A DNA stretch of 40,302 nucleotides from an uncultured Opitutia bacterium (GTDB lineage Bacteria > Verrucomicrobiota > Verrucomicrobiia > Opitutales > Opitutaceae): the NCBI GenBank assembly GCA_903896015.1, contig CAITWF010000093.1:1-40302 (forward strand). The letters run 5' to 3'. The notes under the pieces were generated by a model. The model was not told the DNA's origin. It saw nothing but the letters and a program-made list of their open reading frames with translations, and made no database searches. Shown one piece after another: positions 25,854-39,406 of the stretch; the first letter of the stretch is position 1, and each line of letters begins with the position of its first letter. Position numbers and translations under genes: made by a program.

Positions 25854-25882
25854 GGCGGGCCGCAAGGCCCGCCTTATTTTTT
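25854..25882 (+). terminator. Terminator of the sulfur operon
   Basis: GGCGGGCC (25854-25861), GCAA tetraloop, GGCCCGCC (25866-25873), then TTATTTTTT. The T-run overlaps the stop codon of the converging ctaG gene (TTA at 25874), so the two transcripts end back to back. Confidence 0.93.
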
Positions 25883-26671
25883 CTCCGCGCGCTCGCCGGC
25901 CCGGAACCAGTGGTAGAACGCCACTGCAAACGCGCCGCCCGCCACACTCATGCCGACGATCTTCATTCCCACGCCGGCCAGCAATTGGTCGTCGGCGGCG
26001 GAAAAGAATCCGAACTCTGGCAGGCGCGGCGCGTATTCGTAGGTGGGGTAGAGGAGGTCGTCGGAAAACGTAATGTAGGCAAACACGGGCGTCATCAAAA
26101 TGAGCACCGCGAAGAAATACACCATCTGCGCGCCGTAGCTGATCGGCGGCAAGGCGCGCGAGGGGCTCAGCATCGGCCACCAGTAGAAGAGCGCCGCACC
26201 GAAAAACATCACGTGCTCGCCAACGTGGACGAGCTTGTTTTGGAGGGCGAGGTCGTAGGCATACGGCGCGTGCCACAGACTGATCACGAGCGTGTAGATG
26301 ACGGCGCACGACAACGGGTGCGTGAGCACGCGCAGCGCGCGTCGGAGCTCCGGGCGCCCCAACACCGGATCGACCATCCAAGGCGTGAGCCCGAGAAGAA
26401 ACAAAATCGCCGCCGGATAGATCAGCAACTGGTGCTGAAACATGTGCGCGCTGAAGAGAAAGCGTTCGCCGATTTGATCCAGCGGCGACCCGACGGCAAG
26501 GTAGAAGATGACGAGGGCCGAGTAAAAACACCACGCATTTCTCCGCGGAAACGCTTCGCCGGGCGCGAGCCGGCCGCGCAGAGGGCCGGCGAGCACCGCC
26601 CAGAGCCAGCCGAAGAGCACGAGCCCACCGACGAGGTAGGGTTCATTGTGCCAGTGGCGCCAGTCGATCAT
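25874..26671 (-). CDS. ctaG: CtaG-type cytochrome oxidase copper assembly factor (caa3_CtaG)
   Basis: A 265-residue, seven-helix inner-membrane protein of the caa3_CtaG family, needed for building the copper site of caa3-type oxidase subunit I in Bacillus. Visible features: FSAHMFQHQLLI and LVISLWHAPYAYD with conserved His residues, and LVHVGEHVMFFGAALFYWWP. It follows coxD on the same strand but an intrinsic terminator lies between them, ending only 4 nt before this ATG. Confidence 0.88.
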   Translation of the reverse strand: MIDWRHWHNEPYLVGGLVLFGWLWAVLAGPLRGRLAPGEAFPRRNAWCFYSALVIFYLAVGSPLDQIGERFLFSAHMFQHQLLIYPAAILFLLGLTPWMVDPVLGRPELRRALRVLTHPLSCAVIYTLVISLWHAPYAYDLALQNKLVHVGEHVMFFGAALFYWWPMLSPSRALPPISYGAQMVYFFAVLILMTPVFAYITFSDDLLYPTYEYAPRLPEFGFFSAADDQLLAGVGMKIVGMSVAGGAFAVAFYHWFRAGERAEKK

Positions 26672-27075: not shown

Positions 27076-27921
27076 TCAGAGGTATTCGAGGAGGTAGACG
27101 GCGGTGAAGATGACGATCCAGACAATGTCGACGAAGTGCCAGTAGAGGCCCATCGACTCGACATCGATCGCGTGGCGTTGATCGAACTGGACGGGACCGG
27201 CGGGGCGGGCGAGCCAGAAGCAGCCGCCGAGGGCGATCAGCGCGCCGGCGATCGTGAGGAACTCGCGGCCGATCAAGCCGGCCATAGCGTAACCGTTGAA
27301 GCCTTGGAGCGACCAGACGAGTTCGATGACAAACTTCATCGTGAGCACGAGCGTGCCGAAAACGGCCAGGAGATGCAGGAGGGTGGTGAACCACACGCCC
27401 GCGCCGCCGCGGCCGTCAGCCGGCTTGAACGAGCGCACATACATGAGGCCGAGCCAGAGCACGCCGATCGCGACGTGGCAGCCGTGCGTGCCGGTGAGCG
27501 TGAAGAACGTCGTCCCGAGCAGACTGTTCGAGATCGTCATGTGCTTTTCGATGACGAAGGTGTTAAACTCGAAGACTTGGCAAGCGAGGAAGATCGCGCC
27601 GAAGAACATCGTGGTGAGCAGCGACCAGCGGCAGCTCTTGACGTTGCCCTTCTGGATCGCGTTGACGGCGAGCGCCATCATCAGCGACGACATCAGGAGG
27701 ATGAAGGTCGAGAACGAGGTGAGCTGGATGTCGAAGACATCGAGGGGCTTGATGCCGCCGGAGGGCGGGTGCAGCCGGTAGATAAGGTGCGTCGAGATTA
27801 GCGCGCCGAAGAACATGCAGTCCGACGCAAGAAACGCCCACATGAGGAGCTTCTTGTTCGGGATGCCGGTCGAGGTCGACGGGTCGTGATGGTGATCGAT
27901 GGTGGCCGCGTGGCTGCTCAT
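27076..27921 (-). CDS. ctaE: Cytochrome c oxidase subunit III with a two-helix insertion
   Basis: A 281-residue subunit III. The order is: helices from KKLLMWAFLASDCMFFGA (24), FSTFILLMSSLMMAL, LLTTMFFGAIFLACQVFE, the family motif FFTLTGTHGCHVAIGVLWLG (139-158), then about 78 residues with two extra hydrophobic segments (177-203 and 220-238), and finally LYWHFVDIVWIVIFTAVYL (259-277). In usual CtaE the THGCHV helix is followed almost directly by YWHFVD. Start ATG 27921 (MSSHAATIDHHHD); the upstream frame is Ser/Thr/Pro-rich and overlaps subunit I. Confidence 0.9.
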   Translation of the reverse strand: MSSHAATIDHHHDPSTSTGIPNKKLLMWAFLASDCMFFGALISTHLIYRLHPPSGGIKPLDVFDIQLTSFSTFILLMSSLMMALAVNAIQKGNVKSCRWSLLTTMFFGAIFLACQVFEFNTFVIEKHMTISNSLLGTTFFTLTGTHGCHVAIGVLWLGLMYVRSFKPADGRGGAGVWFTTLLHLLAVFGTLVLTMKFVIELVWSLQGFNGYAMAGLIGREFLTIAGALIALGGCFWLARPAGPVQFDQRHAIDVESMGLYWHFVDIVWIVIFTAVYLLEYL

Positions 27922-27952
27922 GTCGGAAGGTGGGTGGCTGAAGGGAGGAGGC

Positions 27953-29929
27953 TTAGTGTTTCTTGGCGTCGGACTTGTGGTCGTCGCCCTCGATGTGGAG
28001 ATGGTATCCCTCGTTGCCCTCGAGCGCCCAGAGATAGATGCCGGCAACCGCCACGGCACCGCCGACCAGCACGGTTGCGAGCTTGATGTGGATGCCGGGG
28101 CTCCAGTTGGAGTCGAACACCGTCGCGCCGATCGCGAGAATCAGCAGGCCGAAGCTGGCGACGAACGGGTAGATCGAGGCGAACGGCATGTGGATGCCGC
28201 CGTGGGCCTCGTCTTCTTTCGCGTGCTCGGCCTTTTCCTTGGCGATTTCTTCCTGGTGATGTTTTTCATACCAGAACGCATCGCGTGCATGCACAGTCGG
28301 GATTACGGCGAAATTATATTCCGGCGGCGGGGTTGGGAGCGACCACTCGAGCGTGCGGCCATCCCACGGATCGCGGCCGACCTTCTCGCCCTTGAAGTAG
28401 GTGTAGACCATCGTCGCGAAGTAGATGAAGATGCCGAGGCCGAGGACGTAGGAGCCCATCGTCGCGATGAAGTTGGCGGTGTTCCAGCCCATGTTCGGAT
28501 CGTAGGTGAAGGTGCGGCGCGGCATGCCGTTCAGACCGAGGAAGTGCATCGGGAAGAACGTGACGTTGAAGCCGACGAAGATGACCCAGAAGGAGAGCTT
28601 GCCCCAGAACTCGGAGACCTTGCGACCGAAGATCAGTGGGAACCAGTAGTGGATGCCGGCGAGCAGCGCGAAGATCGAGCCGCCGATGAGCACATAGTGA
28701 AAGTGGGCGATGACGAAGTAGGAATCCTGCTGCTGCGCGTCCGCTGGAGCGGCCGAGTGCATCACGCCAGAGAAGCCGCCGAGCATGAACATCCAGATGA
28801 AGCCGAGCGCGAACATCATCGGCGTGCTCATCTTGAGGTGCCCGCCCCAGAGCGTGCCGATCCAGTTAAAGATTTTCACGCCCGTCGGGACCGCGATGCA
28901 CATTGTGGCCATCGAGAAGGCCGCCGTGGCAACAGCGCCCATGCCGGTGGTGAACATATGATGGCTCCACACGGCGAACCCGAGGAAGCCGATGCACGCG
29001 CCTGAGAAGACGACGATCGGGTAACCGTAGAGGGGCTTGCGCGAGAAGCAGGGGAGGATTTCCGAGATGATGCCCATCGCGGGCAGAATCAGAATGTAAA
29101 CCTCCGGGTGACCGAATACCCAAAACAAGTGCTGCCAGAGGATAGGCATGCCGCCGCCGGAGACTTCGAAGAAGTTGGTGCCGAAGTTGCGGTCCATCAT
29201 CAGCTCGACGAGCGCGATCGTGATGGCGGGGAAGGAGAGGACGATCAGGAAGGCGGTGACGAGCGTCATCCAGACAAAGACGGGCAGGCGCATCATGGTC
29301 ATGCCGGGCGCGCGCAGATTGATGATCGTGACAATGAAGTTAAGCGAGGCGGCGATTGAGGCGACGCCGAGGAGCTGCAGGCCCATCACCCAGAAATCGA
29401 TCGAGTGCTTTGGGATGAAGGTCTTCGAGGTGAGCGGAGCGTAGCCGAACCAGCCGCCATCCGGGGCGCCCCAGCGATCGACTGGGAGGAACCAACCGAT
29501 GTTGAGGATGATCGCTCCGGCGACGAACGTCCACAACGAGAAGGCGTTCAGGCGGGGGAACGCGACGTCACGCGCGCCGATTTGCAGCGGCATGATGTAA
29601 TTGAAGAACGCGGCCGACAGCGGCATGACGGCGAGAAAGATCATCGTCGTGCCGTGCATCGTGAACATCGTGTTGTATTGCTGCGCCGTCAGCACGGTAT
29701 TGTTCGGAAACATCAGCTGCGTGCGGATGAGGAGCGCCTCGACGCCACCGACGAGGAAGAAGATCAGCGCGAAGAAGCCGTAGAGAAAACCGATCTTCTT
29801 GTGATCGACGGTCGTGAGCCAGTCCATGAGACCGGTCGGCGCGTGCGGGCGCCAGAGCACGAACGTCTTCGCGGGCGCGTGCTCCTCGTGTGGGGAGAAA
29901 TCGGATTTGGCGGTCGTGTCGTGAGCCAT
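27953..29929 (-). CDS. ctaD: Cytochrome c oxidase subunit I
   Basis: A 658-residue heme-copper oxidase subunit I, catalysing oxygen reduction with proton pumping. Heme a ligand in MFTMHGTTMIF, CuB His and crosslinked Tyr in FGHPEVYILILP, CuB pair in VWSHHMFTTG, heme a/a3 ligands in FVIAHFHYVLIGG. The glutamate in GHPEVY, the D-channel region (ARDVAFPRLNAFS) and the K-channel lysine (TGVKIFNW) place it in the A1 type. A C-terminal extension adds two helices and a His/Lys-rich tail. 31 bp before subunit III; 9 bp after subunit II. Confidence 0.97.
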   Translation of the reverse strand: MAHDTTAKSDFSPHEEHAPAKTFVLWRPHAPTGLMDWLTTVDHKKIGFLYGFFALIFFLVGGVEALLIRTQLMFPNNTVLTAQQYNTMFTMHGTTMIFLAVMPLSAAFFNYIMPLQIGARDVAFPRLNAFSLWTFVAGAIILNIGWFLPVDRWGAPDGGWFGYAPLTSKTFIPKHSIDFWVMGLQLLGVASIAASLNFIVTIINLRAPGMTMMRLPVFVWMTLVTAFLIVLSFPAITIALVELMMDRNFGTNFFEVSGGGMPILWQHLFWVFGHPEVYILILPAMGIISEILPCFSRKPLYGYPIVVFSGACIGFLGFAVWSHHMFTTGMGAVATAAFSMATMCIAVPTGVKIFNWIGTLWGGHLKMSTPMMFALGFIWMFMLGGFSGVMHSAAPADAQQQDSYFVIAHFHYVLIGGSIFALLAGIHYWFPLIFGRKVSEFWGKLSFWVIFVGFNVTFFPMHFLGLNGMPRRTFTYDPNMGWNTANFIATMGSYVLGLGIFIYFATMVYTYFKGEKVGRDPWDGRTLEWSLPTPPPEYNFAVIPTVHARDAFWYEKHHQEEIAKEKAEHAKEDEAHGGIHMPFASIYPFVASFGLLILAIGATVFDSNWSPGIHIKLATVLVGGAVAVAGIYLWALEGNEGYHLHIEGDDHKSDAKKH

Positions 29930-29938
29930 GGTAGAAAA

Positions 29939-31228
29939 TTACTTGAGGCTTTCGAGGTACGCGACGAGGGCTTCTTCGTCGGCTTCGGTGAGCGTGATTT
30001 TGTTGTCGATATAGCCCTTGGCCATCTTGTTGCCGGGCTTCACCACGCCGGGATTGTGAATCCAGCGCTGGAGTTGCTCGTGATTGTTTTCGAGCAGGCC
30101 GGCCGCGATCGTGGAGCGCGCGCCGACGTGGGTGAGCTCGGGGGCGGTGACGCCCTGCGCACCATGGCCGCGGATAGCGTGACAGCCGACGCAGGTCTTC
30201 GACTGGAATAAAGCCTTGCCCTTCGCGATCAACTCGGGGTCTTCGCCGCCCTCAGGTGACTGCTTGGCGATCCAGGCGTCGAGCGGGGAGATATCGAACT
30301 TGCTTGTGACACCGGATTCGTTGCGGCGGAAGCTCTCGGGCTTGCGCCACGCGGCGAGCTGGGCTTTCGGCGCGGTCTTGGAGGCGACGTTACGTGCGGG
30401 CTGGAGTTGGGAATCGAGCCAGTCATTGAAATCTTTCGGCCCGAGAGCGATGACGCGGAAGCGCATGACGGCGTGCGAATCGCCGCAGTATTCGGCGCAC
30501 TGGCCCCAGTAGTAGCCGGGGTGATCGGCTTTCAGCCAGAGGAAGTTGGCGCGGTTCGGAATCATGTCGACCTTGCCGGCGAGCTTCGGAATCCAAAACG
30601 AGTGGATGACATCGATCGTGCGGAGGTTGATGCGAACGGGCTGGCCGGCAGGGATGATGAGTTCGTTGGCGGTCGCGAGCGGAGCCTTGCCGCCGGACTC
30701 GGGGACCGTTGCCTGCTCGGTGGGATACTCGAACTTAAACCACCACTGATAGCCGGTGGCGTTGACCTCGTAGACTTCCTTCTTCGCGATCATTTCCTCG
30801 AGCTTTGCCTTCGTGTCGGCGCCCGGCACATCGTAGGTGAACCAGATCGCTTTGAGTGTGGGAACGGCGATGATGACGAGTGCGAGCACCGAGGCGGCGA
30901 TGAGGCCAAGCTCGACGAGTGGGTTGCCGTGTCCTTGCGGTGGCGGCTCGGCGTGCTCGTCGGCTTCGCTGCGGGCCTTGAATTTTACGGTGGCGTAGGC
31001 CAGCACCGCGCCGACGATAATGAAGATCACGAACGTGACCCAGCAGGTCACAAAGAAGAGATTGGTCTGTGAGGCGGCGACAGGACCTTCCGTGAAGATG
31101 GTGGATTGGTGGCCGTCCATGACGAACCAGTTGGCGTCAGAGGCCCGGAGCAGCGAACCGCCACCGAGAGCCAGAAACGCGCAAACATCCAAGCGGAAAA
31201 GTTTCTTGAGCAACGAGGTCAGAAGCAT
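29939..31228 (-). CDS. ctaC: Cytochrome c oxidase subunit II fused to cytochrome c (caa3 type)
   Basis: A 429-residue subunit II. After a leader and two membrane helices (about 55-85 and 105-125), the cupredoxin domain carries the CuA ligands H209, C244, E246, C248, H252 and M255 (CAEYCGDSHAVM). A C-terminal c-type cytochrome domain has C346-VGC-H350 (CVGCH) with a likely axial Met in GNKMAKGY. This is the caa3 arrangement, which can take electrons from soluble or lipid-anchored donors. It is the first gene of the minus-strand oxidase run and is divergent from the azurin gene. Confidence 0.97.
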   Translation of the reverse strand: MLLTSLLKKLFRLDVCAFLALGGGSLLRASDANWFVMDGHQSTIFTEGPVAASQTNLFFVTCWVTFVIFIIVGAVLAYATVKFKARSEADEHAEPPPQGHGNPLVELGLIAASVLALVIIAVPTLKAIWFTYDVPGADTKAKLEEMIAKKEVYEVNATGYQWWFKFEYPTEQATVPESGGKAPLATANELIIPAGQPVRINLRTIDVIHSFWIPKLAGKVDMIPNRANFLWLKADHPGYYWGQCAEYCGDSHAVMRFRVIALGPKDFNDWLDSQLQPARNVASKTAPKAQLAAWRKPESFRRNESGVTSKFDISPLDAWIAKQSPEGGEDPELIAKGKALFQSKTCVGCHAIRGHGAQGVTAPELTHVGARSTIAAGLLENNHEQLQRWIHNPGVVKPGNKMAKGYIDNKITLTEADEEALVAYLESLK

Positions 31229-31345: not shown

Positions 31346-31471
31346 GATTTTGTCCTTGGAATAGCGCGTGTGCGCGCGGCTTATGGCCGGCGCGCGCGTT
31401 TCTAAACACGGCGCGGCTAAATTGGCTTCGGGTTTGCATGTCGCGGAAGCCGCGTGCAGCGTCTGCGCGCC

Positions 31472-32008
31472 ATGAAAATCCGTTTCCTCCTTGCCCCTGT
31501 TTTTATTGCTCTCGCGCTTTCCGGCTGCGGCCAGAAAGACTCCGCCTCGGCCGGCGCCACCGCCGCGGCGACTCCCGCCGCCGCGCCCGCGCCGGCTGCC
31601 GGCCCGCGCGTGATCGAAATCACGGCGAATGATACGATGAAATATATTCTCGGCGACAAACAGTCCGGCCCCGGCACGCCGCTCATCATCGAGGCGAAGG
31701 CCGGCGAAGCGCTGAAGATCGTCCTGACGAACACCGGCACCGCGCCGAAGGAAGTCATGGGGCACAACTTTGTGCTGCTCAAGTCCGGCTCCGATGTCGC
31801 CGCGTTTTCTGCCGCCGCGACCGTCGCGAAAGACACCGGCTACATCCCGCCCGCCCTCAAGGACCAAGTGCTCGGCAACACCGAACTGCTCGGGCCACGG
31901 AAGTCCGGGGAGGTTTCAGTCACGCTCGCGGCCGGCGAATATCCGTTCCTCTGCTCGTTCCCCGCGCATTTCGCCGTCGGCATGACGGGTAAGATCGTCG
32001 TGAAATAA
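31472..32008 (+). CDS. Lipid-anchored azurin (blue copper protein)
   Basis: A 178-residue cupredoxin. The N-terminus is a lipoprotein signal (ALSGC, Cys19), then an Ala/Pro-rich linker to about residue 48, then azurin. Type-1 copper ligands are H98 (MGHNFV), C161 (FLCSFP), H166 (AHF) and M171 (GM), in the right spacing. It is expected to shuttle electrons in the periplasm; being membrane-tethered and divergent from the caa3 oxidase, it is a good candidate donor. ATG 31472 starts the signal; an upstream ATG at 31454 adds six residues. Confidence 0.94.
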   Translation: MKIRFLLAPVFIALALSGCGQKDSASAGATAAATPAAAPAPAAGPRVIEITANDTMKYILGDKQSGPGTPLIIEAKAGEALKIVLTNTGTAPKEVMGHNFVLLKSGSDVAAFSAAATVAKDTGYIPPALKDQVLGNTELLGPRKSGEVSVTLAAGEYPFLCSFPAHFAVGMTGKIVVK

Positions 32009-32083: not shown

Positions 32084-32518
32084 TCACTTCGCTGCCGGCC
32101 ACCATTGATAGAGGAAAAAATAGACCAACACGCCGGTCACGCTCACATAATACCAGATGGGAAACGTGAACTTTGCCCATGCCTGGTGCCGCACGAAATC
32201 GCCCCGGATCGCGAAAAGGAATGTCCGCGGCACGAGGTAGGCGATGAGCGCCGCGAGCGGGATGTGCGTCCAGAGAATCGAAAGATAAACGGTGCGGATG
32301 ACGCCCTCGCCGCCGAACTCCGTGTGCAAACCGCGCCGGAGGCCGTGATACGTCACGTATCCGACCAGGAATAGTGCCGACACCACCATCGCCGCGGTCA
32401 TGACCTTCCGGTGCGCCTCCTTTTTCCCGAATTTAATCAGGAGAAAGCCGGCAGTGATCAGCACGGTGGCGAGTGCGTTAAGCGAGGCGTTGAGCGCGGG
32501 AATGTCGCGGACGGTCAT
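32084..32518 (-). CDS. DUF420 membrane protein (CtaM-like)
   Basis: A 144-residue, four-helix inner-membrane protein of the DUF420 family (YozB/CtaM group). Features: LNALATVLITAGFLLIKFGKKEAHRKVM and THIPLAALIAYLVPRT, then RHQAWAKFTFPIWYYVSVTGV. In Staphylococcus the CtaM relative is required for a heme A-containing oxidase. It lies 6 bp after ctaB on the same strand and closes that run. Confidence 0.87.
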   Translation of the reverse strand: MTVRDIPALNASLNALATVLITAGFLLIKFGKKEAHRKVMTAAMVVSALFLVGYVTYHGLRRGLHTEFGGEGVIRTVYLSILWTHIPLAALIAYLVPRTFLFAIRGDFVRHQAWAKFTFPIWYYVSVTGVLVYFFLYQWWPAAK

Positions 32519-32524
32519 GGCGGT

Positions 32525-33424
32525 TTAAAAATGAGCCACGCGGTCGGCGACGAGCGCGCCGAGAGCGATCGGCAGGTAGGCGAGGGTGGTCAAGAAAAGT
32601 TTGCGCGCTGAAAGATCGCGGCCGCTCTTGCGGAGAAACAACGCCGCGCGCCACAGCATCCATGCGCCGCACAAGGCCGCCGGCAGGCCGTACCAACGCG
32701 TCGCGAGGCCGAAATAGCACGGCAGGAGACTCACCGCGACGAGCGCGAGCGTGGTGACAAACGACCAGCCCGCGACCCACACGCCCGATTCGTCTCGCAC
32801 CGGCAGCATCGGGAAATGCACGGTCGAGTAGTCGCGCCGATACGTCCACGCGATCGCCATGAAGTGCGGTATTTGCCAGAAAAAGAGCACACCGAAAAGA
32901 ATCCACCCGAGCGTCGTGACGCGGCCTTCGCCCGCCGCCCAGCCGATCAGCGGCGGAAACGCGCCCGCGATCGCTCCAATTTCCGTCGACCAGCGCGACC
33001 AACGCTTCGCTGGCGTATACCAGCCGAGATACGAAATGATCGTGAGCAAGGTGAACAGCGCCGCGAGCGGATGGACTTTCGCGAACAGCAGGAAGAGCGA
33101 AGCGATGCACATGATCGTGCCGAGCACGAACGCCGAGCCGGTCGCGACTTTCCCGGTCGGAATCGGCCGATCGGCGGTGCGCTTCATCCGCGCGTCGGTA
33201 TCCGACTCCATCCATTGGTTGAGCGCCGCCACGCCGCCTGCCGCGAGCGACGTGCCGGCGACCACACAGAAAATCTTCACACCATCGACGGCCGGCCTCG
33301 CCGCGAAGTAGCCGACCAGCGCCGTCAGAACGGAGAGTAAACTCAGTCGCGGCTTCGTGAGTTCGAGATAATCGCGAAACTTCGCTGATTCCGCGGGCCC
33401 TGCGGCTACGTTTTCCGCGGTCAT
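32525..33424 (-). CDS. ctaB: Protoheme IX farnesyltransferase (heme O synthase)
   Basis: A 299-residue UbiA-family membrane enzyme adding a farnesyl group to heme B to give heme O. The first Asp-rich motif is NQWMESDTDARMKRTADRP (DTDARMKRT), typical of CtaB/CyoE, and the second region is in FWQIPHFMAIAW followed by YRRDY. Its ATG overlaps the ctaA stop by four bases (ATGA), so the heme A pathway genes are coupled. Confidence 0.96.
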   Translation of the reverse strand: MTAENVAAGPAESAKFRDYLELTKPRLSLLSVLTALVGYFAARPAVDGVKIFCVVAGTSLAAGGVAALNQWMESDTDARMKRTADRPIPTGKVATGSAFVLGTIMCIASLFLLFAKVHPLAALFTLLTIISYLGWYTPAKRWSRWSTEIGAIAGAFPPLIGWAAGEGRVTTLGWILFGVLFFWQIPHFMAIAWTYRRDYSTVHFPMLPVRDESGVWVAGWSFVTTLALVAVSLLPCYFGLATRWYGLPAALCGAWMLWRAALFLRKSGRDLSARKLFLTTLAYLPIALGALVADRVAHF

Positions 33425-34422
33425 GCGGCAGTCCGCCCTTCAAGTGCGTCGCGGTGCGCCACCCACGTAAGCCAAAATGTGGTCGCGAGCGTCATCGCGC
33501 CGACGAGAACATGGCCCGTCGTCATCGTCGCGGTGCGCTGCGTCCAGATAATCTGGGCGCCGAGGAAAATTTGCAGCCCGAGCAAACTGATCAGCGCCGA
33601 GGCCGCGGTGCGCATGGCCAGTGTCGCCCCGCGATCGCGGGTGACGAGAAACACAAAGGTTGGCAACACGATCGTCAGGATCGCCGCCATCACGCGATGC
33701 GCGAAGTGGATCGACACGCGGAAATCCCAATGCGCCGGCAACAACCCGCCCTCGGGCGTCGAATGGGGAAACGTTGGAATCGCGAGCCCGGCAAAACTAT
33801 GGCGCAGGACCGCGGCGATCGCGAGCTGGCAAAAGAGGAGCGCGCAGCAAATTACGCCGATGCGCCGCACGGTCGCGCTGACTGGCACGCCGCGCTCAAT
33901 CCAGCCGCGCGAGCAGGCGACGGCGATCGCGATCAGCGTGCAGACGAACAGCTGCGCGAGGCACGCGTGCAGCATCGCGAAGAGCCGCCCCACGCTCGTC
34001 TCAAGCGAGGGCAGCGCATGCGAGTCGAGCAGCACGCGCAGCCCGCCGACGATTGCCTGCGCGAGCACGAGACCGACGGCGAACCACGCGAGTTTCCGCA
34101 CCCAAGGGCGCGCTTCCGTGCGCCCGATCCACACCGCGAGCACGATCGTGATGATGCTCATCATGCCGGCACTGAGCCGATGCGAGTGCTCCGCGAACAT
34201 CGAAAGATTGTCGAGCCAGCCGATTGGGTTGAGCGAGCCATTCGAGAGCGGCCAGTCGGCAAACGCCATGCCGGCGCCGATGCTCGTGGTAAACGCCCCG
34301 AGCGTCACCAGCACAAACACCCACACCGCACCAATCCCCGCGAAGGTGGCGAGCCCGGGCCGAAACGCGGCAGGGCGCGAGGGCGGCAGGGCGGTTGGTG
34401 GAGATTGAATGGCGGTGTCCAT
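33421..34422 (-). CDS. ctaA: Heme A synthase (COX15/CtaA)
   Basis: A 333-residue, eight-helix membrane enzyme that oxidises heme O to heme A. The first helix is followed by GAFTTSIGAGMAFADWPLSNG, the family entry motif; conserved His residues occur in FAEHSHRLSAG, LHACLAQLFV, FAHRVMAA and TTGHVLVGA. Start ATG 34422 (MDTAIQSPP); upstream codons in frame are Arg/Ser-rich and overlap the divergent SCO promoter, so they are rejected. Confidence 0.94.
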   Translation of the reverse strand: MDTAIQSPPTALPPSRPAAFRPGLATFAGIGAVWVFVLVTLGAFTTSIGAGMAFADWPLSNGSLNPIGWLDNLSMFAEHSHRLSAGMMSIITIVLAVWIGRTEARPWVRKLAWFAVGLVLAQAIVGGLRVLLDSHALPSLETSVGRLFAMLHACLAQLFVCTLIAIAVACSRGWIERGVPVSATVRRIGVICCALLFCQLAIAAVLRHSFAGLAIPTFPHSTPEGGLLPAHWDFRVSIHFAHRVMAAILTIVLPTFVFLVTRDRGATLAMRTAASALISLLGLQIFLGAQIIWTQRTATMTTGHVLVGAMTLATTFWLTWVAHRDALEGRTAA

Positions 34423-34508: not shown

Positions 34509-35426
34509 ATGAAAACTTATGCCTGCGTCGCAGCGGCTGTGCTCGCGGCCCTCGCGAGTACGGGTTGCTCGCGCCCCGAGGTCGCGGCCAAGGCCCCGAC
34601 GACCGCGTCGGCCCCGACTCCCGCGCTGACTGAACCGGTGACACATTACGCTCTGCGTGGCGAAGTGATTTCTGTGGATGTTGCGCGCCACGTGCTCGTC
34701 GTGAAACACGAGGAGATTACGGGCTACATGCCGGGTATGACGATGGAGTTTGTCGTTTCGGCGGGGGATGCCGCGGTCGCGAAACCCGGCCAGCGCATCC
34801 GCGCCCAGATGATTCCGAGCAAGGATTCGGACTTTCGCCTCGAACAAATTTGGACCGACGACAAGGTTGCGACCGATACGGTCGCCGCCGTCTCGAATGC
34901 GTTGCGGCAGGACACGCACAATCGCGGCAAGGAGGCCTACCGTGAAATCGGTGAGACCATTCCCGATTTCGCGCTCTACGATCAGGAGGGCCGCGTGGTG
35001 CAGAGCGCGCGTTTCCGCGGCAAACTGATCATGCTGAACTTTATCTATTCGCGCTGCCCGGTCGCCACGATGTGCCCCGCCTCGACTGCGAAGATGATGT
35101 CCACGCAGAAGCTTGCCCGGGACGCCGGCGTCCCAAATCTCGAGCTCATCTCGGTCTCCCTTGAGCCGTCCTACGACACGCCCGGCGTGTTGAAAGATTA
35201 CGCCACGACGCGCGGCATCGACACCTCCAATTTTTCCTTCCTGACCGGCCCCGAGCGCGCGATCGCCGATCTGCTGACGCAATTTGGGGTAATTGCGGAG
35301 TTCAAGGGGGGCGTGCTCAACCACTCTCTCTCGACCCTGCTGATCGACGAAAACGGCAGGATCATTCATCGCGCCGACGGCAGCCAGTGGGAGCCGCGCG
35401 AGTTCATCGCCAAGATGACGAAGTGA
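34509..35426 (+). CDS. CusF-like/SCO1 fusion lipoprotein for copper delivery
   Basis: A 305-residue lipoprotein (STGC, Cys20). Residues about 48-115 are a CusF-like copper-binding domain, with H67 and the M74/M77/M79 cluster (YMPGMTMEF). Residues about 145-305 are a SCO1/SenC thioredoxin fold (IPDFALYDQEGRVV, LIMLNFIYSRCP) whose copper cysteines are C183 and C189, a CX5C motif instead of the usual CX3C, with distal H272. SCO proteins load or reduce the CuA site of oxidase subunit II. It is divergent from ctaA and 10 bp before the twin-HxHP gene. Confidence 0.9.
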   Translation: MKTYACVAAAVLAALASTGCSRPEVAAKAPTTASAPTPALTEPVTHYALRGEVISVDVARHVLVVKHEEITGYMPGMTMEFVVSAGDAAVAKPGQRIRAQMIPSKDSDFRLEQIWTDDKVATDTVAAVSNALRQDTHNRGKEAYREIGETIPDFALYDQEGRVVQSARFRGKLIMLNFIYSRCPVATMCPASTAKMMSTQKLARDAGVPNLELISVSLEPSYDTPGVLKDYATTRGIDTSNFSFLTGPERAIADLLTQFGVIAEFKGGVLNHSLSTLLIDENGRIIHRADGSQWEPREFIAKMTK

Positions 35427-35436
35427 ACGGCCGCGC

Positions 35437-36357
35437 ATGACTCTCGCCTCGACCGAAAAACGTCAGATCGCGTGGATCACGGTGGGGGCGATCGCGGTGT
35501 TTCTGTTTTTGCGCTTCCTGCCGACGGGCACGAATCTCAATCACATGGATTTTCGCGTGAACGCGAAAAACTCCATCGACTTCTGCGACCCGCTCAACCC
35601 GCAGTTCATTCCGGTGGTCGCCGTCGCCTCGCCCGTGACGTTGGCCCTCGCCAACGACGGATCACCGATCGCTGCGGGCAAAGAAGCGCGCTTCACGCTC
35701 ACTCTGAAAACTGCGAGTGGCAAACTCATCGCCCCTGAAGATTTGATCGTGGCACACACCAAACTGCTGCACCTGCTGATCGTTGATCCGTGGCTCGACG
35801 ATTACCAGCACGTGCATCCCGAGCCGGGGCGTGCAAAAGGCGAATGGACATTTGTGTTCACTCCGAAACGCGAGGGCCGCTACCGCGTGTTTGCCGACTT
35901 CACGCCGGTCGCGACGGCGCGCGGACTCTACGCGTCAGTGGACGTGCCGGTGGGCAACGCTGCGCCCGACGGCTTGACGCTTACGATGCAGCACGCAACG
36001 GCGTGGTCGTTCGAGCGCGATGGGTTTCAGTTCGAGCTCAAGCCGGCCGCGCTGCCGATCAAGGCGCAGCGTCCGGCGGATTTGAAACTGCTCATTACGC
36101 GCGTGGGCGGCGGCGCGGTGCCGATGGAGCCGGTGATGGGCGCGTTCGCGCACCTCGTGGCGTTCGACGAAGCGCGCAGCGGCTTCGCGCACCTGCACCC
36201 GATGGAGATCGATCTCGCCCAGCGGCCGGACGCGACGCGCCCGGAGTTGAATTTCAAGATCACGATTCCGCGCGCGGGGCGCTACGTGATTTGGGCGCAG
36301 GTCAACCTCGGCGGGCGCGAATCGTTCGTGCCGTTTTGGTTCGAGGTTTCGCCATAG
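35437..36357 (+). CDS. Membrane-anchored protein with two HxHP metal-binding-like domains
   Basis: A 306-residue protein with a single N-terminal membrane anchor (about 11-28) and a periplasmic part. Two related domains each carry a histidine-rich strand: first H107, H112, then DYQ-H125-V-H127-P; second H239, then GFA-H252-L-H254-P. An early N-H36-M-D and a single Cys in DFCDP could add metal ligands. I do not recognise a characterised family; FixH/YtkA-type or heavy-metal-associated periplasmic domains look most similar. Cotranscription with the CusF-SCO gene suggests copper handling for oxidase assembly. Its 3' end overlaps the converging MazG-like gene by 56 bp. Confidence 0.75.
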   Translation: MTLASTEKRQIAWITVGAIAVFLFLRFLPTGTNLNHMDFRVNAKNSIDFCDPLNPQFIPVVAVASPVTLALANDGSPIAAGKEARFTLTLKTASGKLIAPEDLIVAHTKLLHLLIVDPWLDDYQHVHPEPGRAKGEWTFVFTPKREGRYRVFADFTPVATARGLYASVDVPVGNAAPDGLTLTMQHATAWSFERDGFQFELKPAALPIKAQRPADLKLLITRVGGGAVPMEPVMGAFAHLVAFDEARSGFAHLHPMEIDLAQRPDATRPELNFKITIPRAGRYVIWAQVNLGGRESFVPFWFEVSP

Positions 36358-37568: not shown

Positions 37569-37946
37569 CTAGGATTTCTTTTCGTTCGCGGGCGTAGCTG
37601 TCGCGGCACCTCGGTCGTTGCCGTAGGTTTTTGCGAGATAGTCGACGATCGGATCGATCGCGGTGTCGGGGATGGGCGCGGCGAAAACTTTCTGCATTTT
37701 CACGACGGTCGCCTGCCAGTAGGCGCGCGGCGAAGTGGGCGGCTGGGTGAGTGAATACTCGGCGGAGTGGCATGTGCCGCACAGTCCCTGTGCGAGCGCG
37801 AAGCCGGGCAGCGGCGACGGTTTGAGGGCGGCCGTCTCGCGCGGCAGCGTGATCTCAATGGCGCGCGAAGGGAGGGTGAACACGAACAGCGCGGCGGCGA
37901 TGATCGAAAATGCAGGGACGAGGGAAGCGTGGGGAATTGTTTTCAT
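37569..37946 (-). CDS. SorB-like cytochrome c subunit of sulfite dehydrogenase
   Basis: A 125-residue exported monoheme cytochrome c. A signal peptide (about 1-28, ending SRA|I) precedes the heme motif C56-GTC-H60 (LCGTCHSAE); the axial Met is likely in VVKMQKVF, as in the SorB/c-type subunits of sulfite dehydrogenases. It would take electrons from the molybdenum subunit and pass them to cytochrome c, azurin or the caa3 oxidase. ATG overlaps the upstream stop by four bases (ATGA). The longer frame in which it lies reads the wrong frame of the upstream gene. Confidence 0.9.
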   Translation of the reverse strand: MKTIPHASLVPAFSIIAAALFVFTLPSRAIEITLPRETAALKPSPLPGFALAQGLCGTCHSAEYSLTQPPTSPRAYWQATVVKMQKVFAAPIPDTAIDPIVDYLAKTYGNDRGAATATPANEKKS

Positions 37947-39196
37947 GCGCGGAGGGCGTTGACCTCGACGGTTTCGACGACGTTTCGCATGTAGCCGGAG
38001 GGATTCCACGTGGCTTCGAGCGGCTGCGTCTCTCCGGCATTGCTGGTGGCGCGAGCCATGAGTTTGAGTGGGCCGGGCGCCCGCACGGTGAAGGTCATCT
38101 GCCACTCGCGAAAAGCGTAGCGGCCGGTGTCCTGGCCAAGGCGTGCGGGCTGCCAGGTGCCGCCACCGTCGGCGGAGAACGCGACTTCCTTGATGCCGCT
38201 GCCCGAGTCGAACGCGATGCCCCGCGCGGTGATCGCGCGGCCCGCGACGATCGGTGCGCCGGCGGCCGGGCTCGTGATGAAGGAGCGCACGGTAAACTTG
38301 TTGATCGGGATCGTCGCGGTTGGCGTTGTCCCGGGGGCGACGGAGTGCGTGGGGTTGTCCGGGATGCGATAGCCCTTCGCCATCCAGAAACCGTCGAAGG
38401 TGTGATCGAGCACCTCGATTGAGCTGAGATGTTTCACCCAATACGTGCCGTAGTAGCCCGGGACGATCAGCTTCACCGGGTAGCCGTTGAGCATGGGGAT
38501 GTCGGTGCCGTTCATCGCCCACGCGAGCATCACCTCGCCGTTGAGCGCGTGATCGATATCGAGCGCCTTCGCGAAGACGGGCGTCGCTTCGATCACACCA
38601 TGATCGAGGCCGCGGAACGAAACCTGTTTTGCGCCCACGCCAACGCCCGCGCGCTCCAGCACGCGTTTGAGCGGGACGCCGGTCCACAATGCGTTGCCCA
38701 TCGCGCCGTGGCCGAGTTGGCCGCCGTTCGCACGCGGCGAGAAGAAGCCGCGGCTGTTGCCGGAGCACTGGTTGACGGCGCAAAATTCGACGGGGTCGCC
38801 GAGGGCCTTGAGGTCGGCAACGGAGAGCGAGAGTGGAGTCGCCACAAGCCCGCGGATGTTTACGCGGTGCGCCGCCGGGTCGATGCTGAGCGGGATTTCG
38901 CTCAGGTGGTATCGCACAAAGAATGCGTCGTTGGGCGTGACAATGCCCTCGTTGAACACGGCGAAGGGTGTCTCAAGCTGCGGCGGCCGCGACGTCAGCC
39001 GGATGAGTGGCCGCTTCTGCGGATAGGCGACAAGATCTCGCTGGCCGTTGTCGAACGGGAGCGTGACGGTGCCGGTCACGCCGGTGTCGTCAGCGCCGAA
39101 GGCGCGGGGGAGTTTGGCGGCGAGCGCAGCGCCAGCGGCGAGCAGGCCAGCCTGGCGGAAAAACTCGCGGCGCGGAGTGGGGAGGGAACGTTGCAC
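37943..39196 (-). CDS. SorA/SoxC-like periplasmic sulfite dehydrogenase (molybdenum subunit)
   Basis: A 417-residue sulfite oxidase-family enzyme. A Tat signal (PRREFFRQAGLLAAG) leads it to the periplasm already folded with molybdopterin. The Mo-ligand cysteine is C144 in AVNQCSGN; the Mo-co binding domain runs to about 290, followed by the dimerisation domain (RGIAFDSGSGIKEVAFSADGG, FREWQMTF). It oxidises sulfite to sulfate. GTG 39196 puts the twin arginines at 9-10, fitting a Tat peptide; the ATG at 39256 adds 20 Arg/Cys-rich residues and seems less likely. Together with SorB it forms one translation-coupled unit. Confidence 0.9.
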   Translation of the reverse strand: MQRSLPTPRREFFRQAGLLAAGAALAAKLPRAFGADDTGVTGTVTLPFDNGQRDLVAYPQKRPLIRLTSRPPQLETPFAVFNEGIVTPNDAFFVRYHLSEIPLSIDPAAHRVNIRGLVATPLSLSVADLKALGDPVEFCAVNQCSGNSRGFFSPRANGGQLGHGAMGNALWTGVPLKRVLERAGVGVGAKQVSFRGLDHGVIEATPVFAKALDIDHALNGEVMLAWAMNGTDIPMLNGYPVKLIVPGYYGTYWVKHLSSIEVLDHTFDGFWMAKGYRIPDNPTHSVAPGTTPTATIPINKFTVRSFITSPAAGAPIVAGRAITARGIAFDSGSGIKEVAFSADGGGTWQPARLGQDTGRYAFREWQMTFTVRAPGPLKLMARATSNAGETQPLEATWNPSGYMRNVVETVEVNALRA

Positions 39197-39406
39197 GCGG
39201 AGACAAGACGCGCGAACGCGGCGAAGGTGGCAAGCGGGTTTTCCCAGGAAAAGCACCAGGACAGCAGCGTCGCGGTCAGCGCCAATTCTTGGAGGGCAGC
39301 CGGCGGATGCATGGCTCGCCGCCGCGATTTCGGGCTCTAACGTGATCGTGGCTGTGCGCTTTCCCGGCGAGGAAACGGCGTCAGTGCCTGCGCAGCTCCT
39401 GTCGGC
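39197..39406. other. Gap between speA and the sulfite dehydrogenase genes
   Basis: A 210-bp stretch between two same-strand genes. I see no terminator for speA, no convincing promoter hexamers for the sulfite dehydrogenase genes, and no credible small gene; a 78-residue minus frame here (from 39312) runs into the Tat-enzyme gene out of frame and has no family features. Confidence 0.5.

Follow-up and report, generated by a model that had tools for sequence, protein, structure and literature searches.

The window analysed here, 40,302 nucleotides of DNA from an uncultured Opitutia bacterium, contains an open reading frame for an unnamed protein with two H-x-H-P motifs, located next to a gene for an SCO-type copper chaperone and a gene cluster for a caa3-type cytochrome oxidase. 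This raises the question of what part the protein plays in supplying copper to the oxidase. It probably helps to load copper into the caa3 oxidase, and on balance we consider it likely that the protein carries copper and cooperates with SCO in filling the CuA centre. The locus comprises the following features:

25874-26671, minus strand: Caa3_CtaG (PF09678, E 2.8e-49)
27076-28059, minus strand: COX3 (named by eye from the sequence; start uncertain)
27953-29929, minus strand: COX1 (named by eye from the sequence)
29939-31228, minus strand: COX2 of caa3 type, with the CuA motif HX34CXEXCX3HX2M and a cytochrome c domain (profile and exact motif)
32084-32518, minus strand: DUF420 protein, CtaM family (PF04238, E 1.6e-38)
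32525-33424, minus strand: CtaB/CyoE-like UbiA prenyltransferase (PF01040, E 1e-50)
33421-34422, minus strand: CtaA/COX15 heme A synthase, divergent (PF02628, E 4e-26; start codon picked by eye)
34509-35426, plus strand: CusF-SCO fusion lipoprotein and presumed partner of the next gene product, ending 10 bp before that gene (PF02630, E 8.4e-22; PF11604, E 2.9e-8; ligands conserved)
35437-36357, plus strand: unnamed twin-HxHP protein of 306 aa (ATG at 35437, stop ending at 36357)
35584-35586, plus strand: C50, its sole cysteine, C-terminal of the membrane helix (alignments and position check)
35770-35820, plus strand: domain-1 motif H112-x12-H125-x-H127-P128, proposed metal site (invariant in a 27-sequence alignment)
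36136-36201, plus strand: domain-2 motif M234-x4-H239-x12-H252-x-H254-P255, proposed metal site (alignments and position check)

The reading frame at 35437-36357 is confirmed as real and conserved, and not a chance frame, because the gene is present in 37 of 57 genomes (the window's own and its relatives) and its histidines are kept across phyla. In sequence searches with the protein, NCBIfam and PDB gave no match, and Pfam none that reached its cut-off. Filamin and Cornichon matches in Pfam (E 0.15-0.17) fell below the cut-off and were rejected as Ig-like background, and the family profile matched two PDB rows at chance level (E 1.3 and 1.8), with none for the protein itself. Among the open-access papers listed by the literature searches, no title or abstract opening mentioned the family or a study of it.

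The predicted model of the 306-aa protein (31 aligned sequences; mean pLDDT 90.9, pTM 0.84) consists of a helix at residues 5-26 followed by beta-sandwich domains at about 64-175 and 190-306. The helix agrees with the inner-membrane anchor assumed in a preliminary description of this DNA, which had been made from the letters alone. A pattern check found no lipobox in the protein, whose single cysteine is residue 50; it has the helix instead. Basic residues at the helix start (K8, R9) suggest an orientation in which the bulk of the protein faces the periplasm. A pattern scan identified H-x12-H-x-H-P in both Ig-like domains, with HVHP at residues 125-128 (35809-35820) and HLHP at 252-255 (36190-36201). 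Alignment of the domain-1 and domain-2 profiles with hhalign gave a probability of 99.3% (E 9e-21) and paired H112 with H239, H125 with H252 and H127 with H254. The two halves are homologous, duplicated domains, as the preliminary description had it. That description also let each domain end in HxHP; in contrast, the motif lies about half-way through each domain, on the second hairpin strand, and is followed by a further 45-50 residues or so. In the model the first histidine is on one hairpin strand and the H-x-H on or just beyond the next (111-116/123-126 and 238-244/250-253), a spacing from which the three histidines of each domain should share one face.

An alignment of 27 widely chosen sequences, with identity to the window protein down to 18%, showed only H112, H125, H127, P128, G147, H239, H252 and H254 to be invariant. 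Of the further conserved histidines that had been claimed, one per domain (H112 and H239) is therefore invariant, and H107, which stands in domain 1 where domain 2 has M234, is nearly conserved; the same holds for M234 and C50 in this lineage. All six histidines are retained in 64 of 65 aligned homologues, namely in 45/46 rows from Verrucomicrobiota and 19/19 from Actinomycetota, Bacillota, Bacteroidota, Cyanobacteriota and haloarchaea; the Verrucomicrobiota row L111 is without three of the six. In the same alignment position 234 is methionine in 45 of the 46 Verrucomicrobiota rows and leucine in all 19 others. C50 is kept in each of the 40 Verrucomicrobiota rows that reach this position and is generally lacking in members linked to copZ/copA. 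We also compared a set of near loci, the best 80 of 366 relatives in a genome collection (shown titles Opitutae-, Opitutaceae- or Verrucomicrobia-type), which come partly from the same genomes as the 57 relatives. Together with the window, the six histidines, M234 and C50 are each found in 81/81 of these sequences, which had been pre-selected by search patterns for H125/H127 or M234/H239. The homologues thus keep their HxHP residues.

The SCO gene ends 10 bases upstream of the twin-HxHP gene on the same strand, and this adjacency, which the preliminary description had pointed out, is widespread in Opitutales. Apart from the window, an SCO gene immediately precedes it on the same strand in 33 of 35 testable loci from relatives (not in L035 and L038; L023 and L047 are cut by contig ends), in 7/10 further order-level loci (exceptions L114, L115 and L118) and in 79/79 testable near loci among the best 80 of 366, with a median gap of about 21 bases. 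The class-level relatives L110-L112 are without SCO directly upstream, L110 having an SCO-like match on the opposite strand. In a promoter scan no sigma-70-like site was found, with 0.4 expected, a result that carries no weight either way. The loci L114 (8079-9023) and L115 (4845-5792), both from family f11, have the gene apart from SCO and next to a small conserved protein with a start like M(D/E)DFxxFKASR, although their genomes have a COX2 match. The SCO of the window is itself a lipoprotein, fused at its N-terminus to a CusF-like domain; the spacing of its cysteines, C183 and C189, is CX5C as opposed to the CX3C quoted for Sco. Across 80 rows H67, M74, M79, C183, C189 and H272 are unchanged wherever a row has a residue at the position, and M77 has a single exception. 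Elsewhere in its own genome, a copper-type P-type ATPase with a CPC motif (G000:C108:11881-13827) and a second SCO-like match (G000:C108:112721-113092) share one contig away from the window, and a third SCO-like match is on C111.

The preliminary description had proposed to look at co-occurrence with caa3 oxidases, and within the order the gene does follow the CuA-type COX2. With caa3-type COX2 called at E under 1e-40 (our threshold), 34 of the 57 genomes have both, 3 the gene only (G027, G033, G036), 1 COX2 only (G024) and 19 neither. The gene is thus present in 34/35 relatives with caa3-type COX2 and 3/22 without (Fisher 4.5e-11, with no correction for kinship); a looser limit for COX2 (E 0.001) gave 35/43 and 2/14. 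A sample of 288 genomes drawn from the phylum contains the gene in 38, 35 of which belong to the same order. There it is present in 35 of 36 genomes with COX2 and in 0/7 without COX2; the sole COX2 match of the exception, G267, is a weaker one in a 269-aa frame. The seven without COX2 are spread over four families (f1, f11, f19, f20), and in every one of these families other genomes have both. The two samples overlap, and the counts are not independent of descent. Outside the order only 3 of 56 COX2 genomes have a relative of the protein; these three are of other make-up, and none has SCO directly upstream. The link between gene and COX2 is therefore special to this order, and CuA can be filled without this protein.

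Searches for known assembly factors were run at E 0.001, and control genomes gave matches in each search. Cox11 was detected in none of the 57 genomes and in the Caulobacter control, which bears out the earlier statement that no Cox11 homologue is present. PCuAC was found in 0/57 relatives and 0/288 genomes of the phylum sample, and YtkA in 1/57 genomes. It had been suggested that another factor may be needed for loading CuB or CuA. The cluster of the window includes a caa3-type CtaG, PCuAC was not found and YtkA is nearly absent, so that what is lacking is more probably a CuA partner of PCuAC or CtaK type than a Cox11 substitute for CuB. One genome of the window's family, G072, has both the twin-HxHP gene and a YtkA protein. 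The latter, L203, is a single-domain YtkA-like protein with MPQHGHG, and in the PDB sequence search it matched only proteins named SAKe. Clear YtkA-type proteins among the matches in the phylum are L203, L204 and L109/L208. The rest of the matches were largely rejected as not CtaK-like; the segments inspected, from ORFs of about 720-790 aa, resemble large Ig-containing proteins.

B. subtilis is without PCuAC and has CtaK instead. CtaK, and partly the YtkA domain of YcnJ, support its caa3 oxidase, and copper rescues the mutants (excerpts of PMC13344008); CtaK is thought to act with Sco for CuA (excerpts of PMC13344008 and PMC9145763). CtaK and the YtkA domain of YcnJ are extracytoplasmic and membrane-attached, as the window protein is predicted to be, and like it have conserved His and Met residues; together with Sco they have been implicated in the assembly of caa3 (PMC9145763, PMC13344008, in the same excerpts). 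For the role of CtaK beside Sco in supporting cytochrome c oxidase at low copper, the counterpart seen in the window protein is its genomic linkage. The window protein differs from CtaK in its two domains, in a transmembrane helix instead of a lipid anchor and in the HxHP hairpin. It shares with the YtkA-type protein L203 the M-x4-H spacing in an Ig-like domain (M234 to H239, MGAFAH at 234-239). No match to the YtkA profile (PF13115) was obtained for the window protein or 30 aligned relatives, and no scanned member exceeded the gathering cut-off of 25.9 bits. The profile was listed at E up to 1 for 11 of 18 distant members, in domain 1 or domain 2, and the best of these reached 25.0, 24.1, 23.2, 22.0, 21.7 and 21.0 bits. 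PCuAC (PF04314) is similar in its proposed role as a second copper carrier beside Sco for CuA; the window protein has no match to its profile and lacks the motif H(M)X10MX21HXM (as given in excerpts of PMC9145763).

Domain 2 modelled alone (pLDDT 93.9) was compared with known folds by VIA-align Z and by Foldseek. By Z the closest is the Helicobacter pylori CrdA (PDB 9ll4_A; also 9ll2) with Z 11.4 at 2.4 A over 100 residues, followed by FetP (Z 9.9; 3.9 A, 104 residues) and PmoD (Z 8.3; 3.1 A, 99 residues). Only CrdA stands clear, because non-copper Ig-like proteins (4kh9, transglutaminase 3) reach Z 9.2-9.9; Foldseek ranked DUF4426 first (1.8e-4), with CrdA at 6.0e-4. CrdA is a periplasmic copper binder with the same fold as domain 2, a likeness that by itself shows no function. 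It differs in being a single domain with a methionine-rich site and no histidine, and its copper motif MMXEMPGMXXMXEM is absent from the window protein (site and motif as described in excerpts of PMC9182242). FetP/P19/FtrA and PmoD are among the domain-2 matches listed (Z 8.2-9.9), several with titles that name bound copper; this likeness is one of fold only, since unrelated Ig-like proteins score as high. Whole-model matches to transglutaminase, complement and scFv (Z 7.4 at best; the rows shown include no copper protein) were dismissed as functionally meaningless similarities of tandem Ig domains. Cox11 carries a CFCF-type copper motif, and the window protein has neither this type of motif nor a match to PF04442. 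The copper-storage fold of Csp, a Cys-lined four-helix bundle, is likewise not that of the window protein, with its beta-sandwich model and one cysteine.

By its two domains and its sequence homology the window protein belongs to an unnamed twin H-x12-HxH family that is linked to copZ/copA in other phyla. A tblastn search revealed 225 plasmid records with a match at E 0.01 and 232 at E 0.1, the main ones at E 2e-21 to 8e-9, from Staphylococcus (96-100), Rhodococcus (21), Hymenobacter (19), Streptomyces (11) and Priestia (10) as well as Nostoc and Haladaptatus. We sampled one record per genus for 21 genera, hand-picked from ranked lists, with flanks of 5-6 kb. A CopA-type ATPase was detected by tblastn within these flanks in 17/21 records and SCO in 0/21. 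Often copZ and a regulator of CsoR or MerR type accompany the homologue; frequent annotated orders are copZ-homologue-copA and csoR-copA-copZ-homologue. The four records without CopA are from Priestia, Natrinema, Haladaptatus, where the homologue adjoins a four-helix copper-binding protein, and an unannotated Streptantibioticus stretch (L099). The neighbourhood makes the copper link of the family a strong one: most homologues examined sit at copper or oxidase genes, with the exceptions named here and above. Proteins of Mycolicibacterium, Rothia and a Staphylococcus plasmid, annotated as hypothetical or 'heavy-metal-associated' beside copZ/copA, are of the same family with two domains and six histidines; they differ from the window protein in their tie to copper export, in leucine for M234, in the general lack of C50 and in their place in the tree. 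In this 65-sequence tree (midpoint root) the CopA-context and SCO-context rows are on opposite sides of a moderately supported branch (96/63), with none crossing. The split also separates Verrucomicrobiota from the rest, so genomic context and descent are confounded.

The preliminary description had offered a periplasmic copper store or a partner of SCO/CtaG. Its copper link has held, through CopA near the plasmid homologues, SCO in Opitutales and the fold of CrdA, and so has the tie to a CuA oxidase; a store is less supported, because no more than two sites are conserved and because the gene goes with a CuA-type COX2. A related explanation is a periplasmic buffer or resistance protein that would take up surplus copper on its way out of the cytosol and would have a promoter in common with SCO merely through a joint response to copper. 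The plasmid homologues sampled from Actinomycetota, Bacillota, Cyanobacteriota, Bacteroidota and haloarchaea agree with this, since they lie mostly near CopA-type ATPases and in none of the 21 records near SCO. So does CrdA, the top match of domain 2 by Z, which is a copper resistance determinant (excerpts of PMC9182242). Since the family is tied to copper export in other phyla, detoxification could even be both its ancestral and its present role. In Opitutales, however, the gene is absent from all seven order-level genomes without COX2, and among the best 80 (of 366) near loci only 4 have a CopA match in their flanks, so that we regard a buffer or resistance protein as unlikely here.

Still less probable is a CuB factor that hands copper to CtaG or CtaM (DUF420; PMC9145763, excerpts) in place of Cox11. 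It would account for the failure to find Cox11 in 57/57 genomes, for CtaG and DUF420 in the same cluster and for L118, where the gene adjoins DUF420 without SCO; however, its usual neighbour is SCO, which is best known for CuA, and the CtaG described for B. subtilis and C. glutamicum is of caa3 type and not the same protein as Cox11 (both points from excerpts of PMC9145763). The absence of Cox11 beside a CtaG of this type need therefore not be a gap. Three-histidine sites are typical of zinc too, and the PDB sequence search found no solved structure of the family. The sites might thus bind another metal (zinc, nickel) or act as a structural brace, with the protein as an assembly scaffold, but given its copper-gene neighbours in several phyla and the copper proteins among its fold neighbours we consider this very improbable.

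A copper carrier that serves CuA together with SCO is the reading we prefer. The protein would be anchored in the inner membrane and face the periplasm, where each Ig-like domain may hold one copper on its beta-hairpin through H112/H125/H127 or H239/H252/H254, and M234 could add a thioether to the second site in this lineage. It would be made together with the CusF-SCO lipoprotein, the two would pass copper between them, and the two-copper CuA centre of COX2 could thereby be filled under copper scarcity. We infer CuA as the target, as we do copper binding, its oxidation state, the cotranscription and the direction of transfer. Against this reading, the SCO of the window already has a CusF-like domain and may need no further carrier. 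The job would be equivalent to that of PCuAC in proteobacteria and CtaK in B. subtilis. Because its position in the gene set is the one that CtaK has, the YtkA scores of its distant members come close to the cut-off and the fold of domain 2 resembles CrdA, we think that the protein works like CtaK and PCuAC; by the tests made it is a member of neither family. More tentatively, unnamed twin three-His copper carriers that partner CopZ/CopA may occur throughout prokaryotes and may have been recruited in Opitutales, with the addition of M234 and C50, as a third independent SCO-CuA solution beside PCuAC and CtaK.

This gives a concrete candidate for the whole order, with nine residues open to mutation. 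Relatives annotated 'hypothetical protein' lie near copper-export genes in several Actinomycetota, on a staphylococcal plasmid and in haloarchaea, and because they are of the same family one biochemical study would help to annotate them. The one staphylococcal plasmid opened, from S. warneri (L092, 2903-6543), encodes a CsoR-type regulator, a P-type ATPase, copZ and then a "hypothetical" family member of 218 residues. Fusions to HMBD are present at the C-terminus in L035 (7394-8893, Verrucomicrobiota) and at the N-terminus in L089 (5782-6741, Hymenobacter). In the alignment the haloarchaeal plasmid members L094, L104 and L107 show no membrane helix at the N-terminus; one of them is annotated as a FixH family protein. 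Within the window, a plastocyanin/azurin-type cupredoxin (31454-32008) lies between COX2 and DUF420 on the opposite strand, with a match in 50 of the best 80 (of 366) near loci, and 37569-39256 contains a molybdopterin sulfite-oxidase-like protein (Oxidored_molyb) followed by a frame that resembles a short cytochrome c (CGTCHSAEY).
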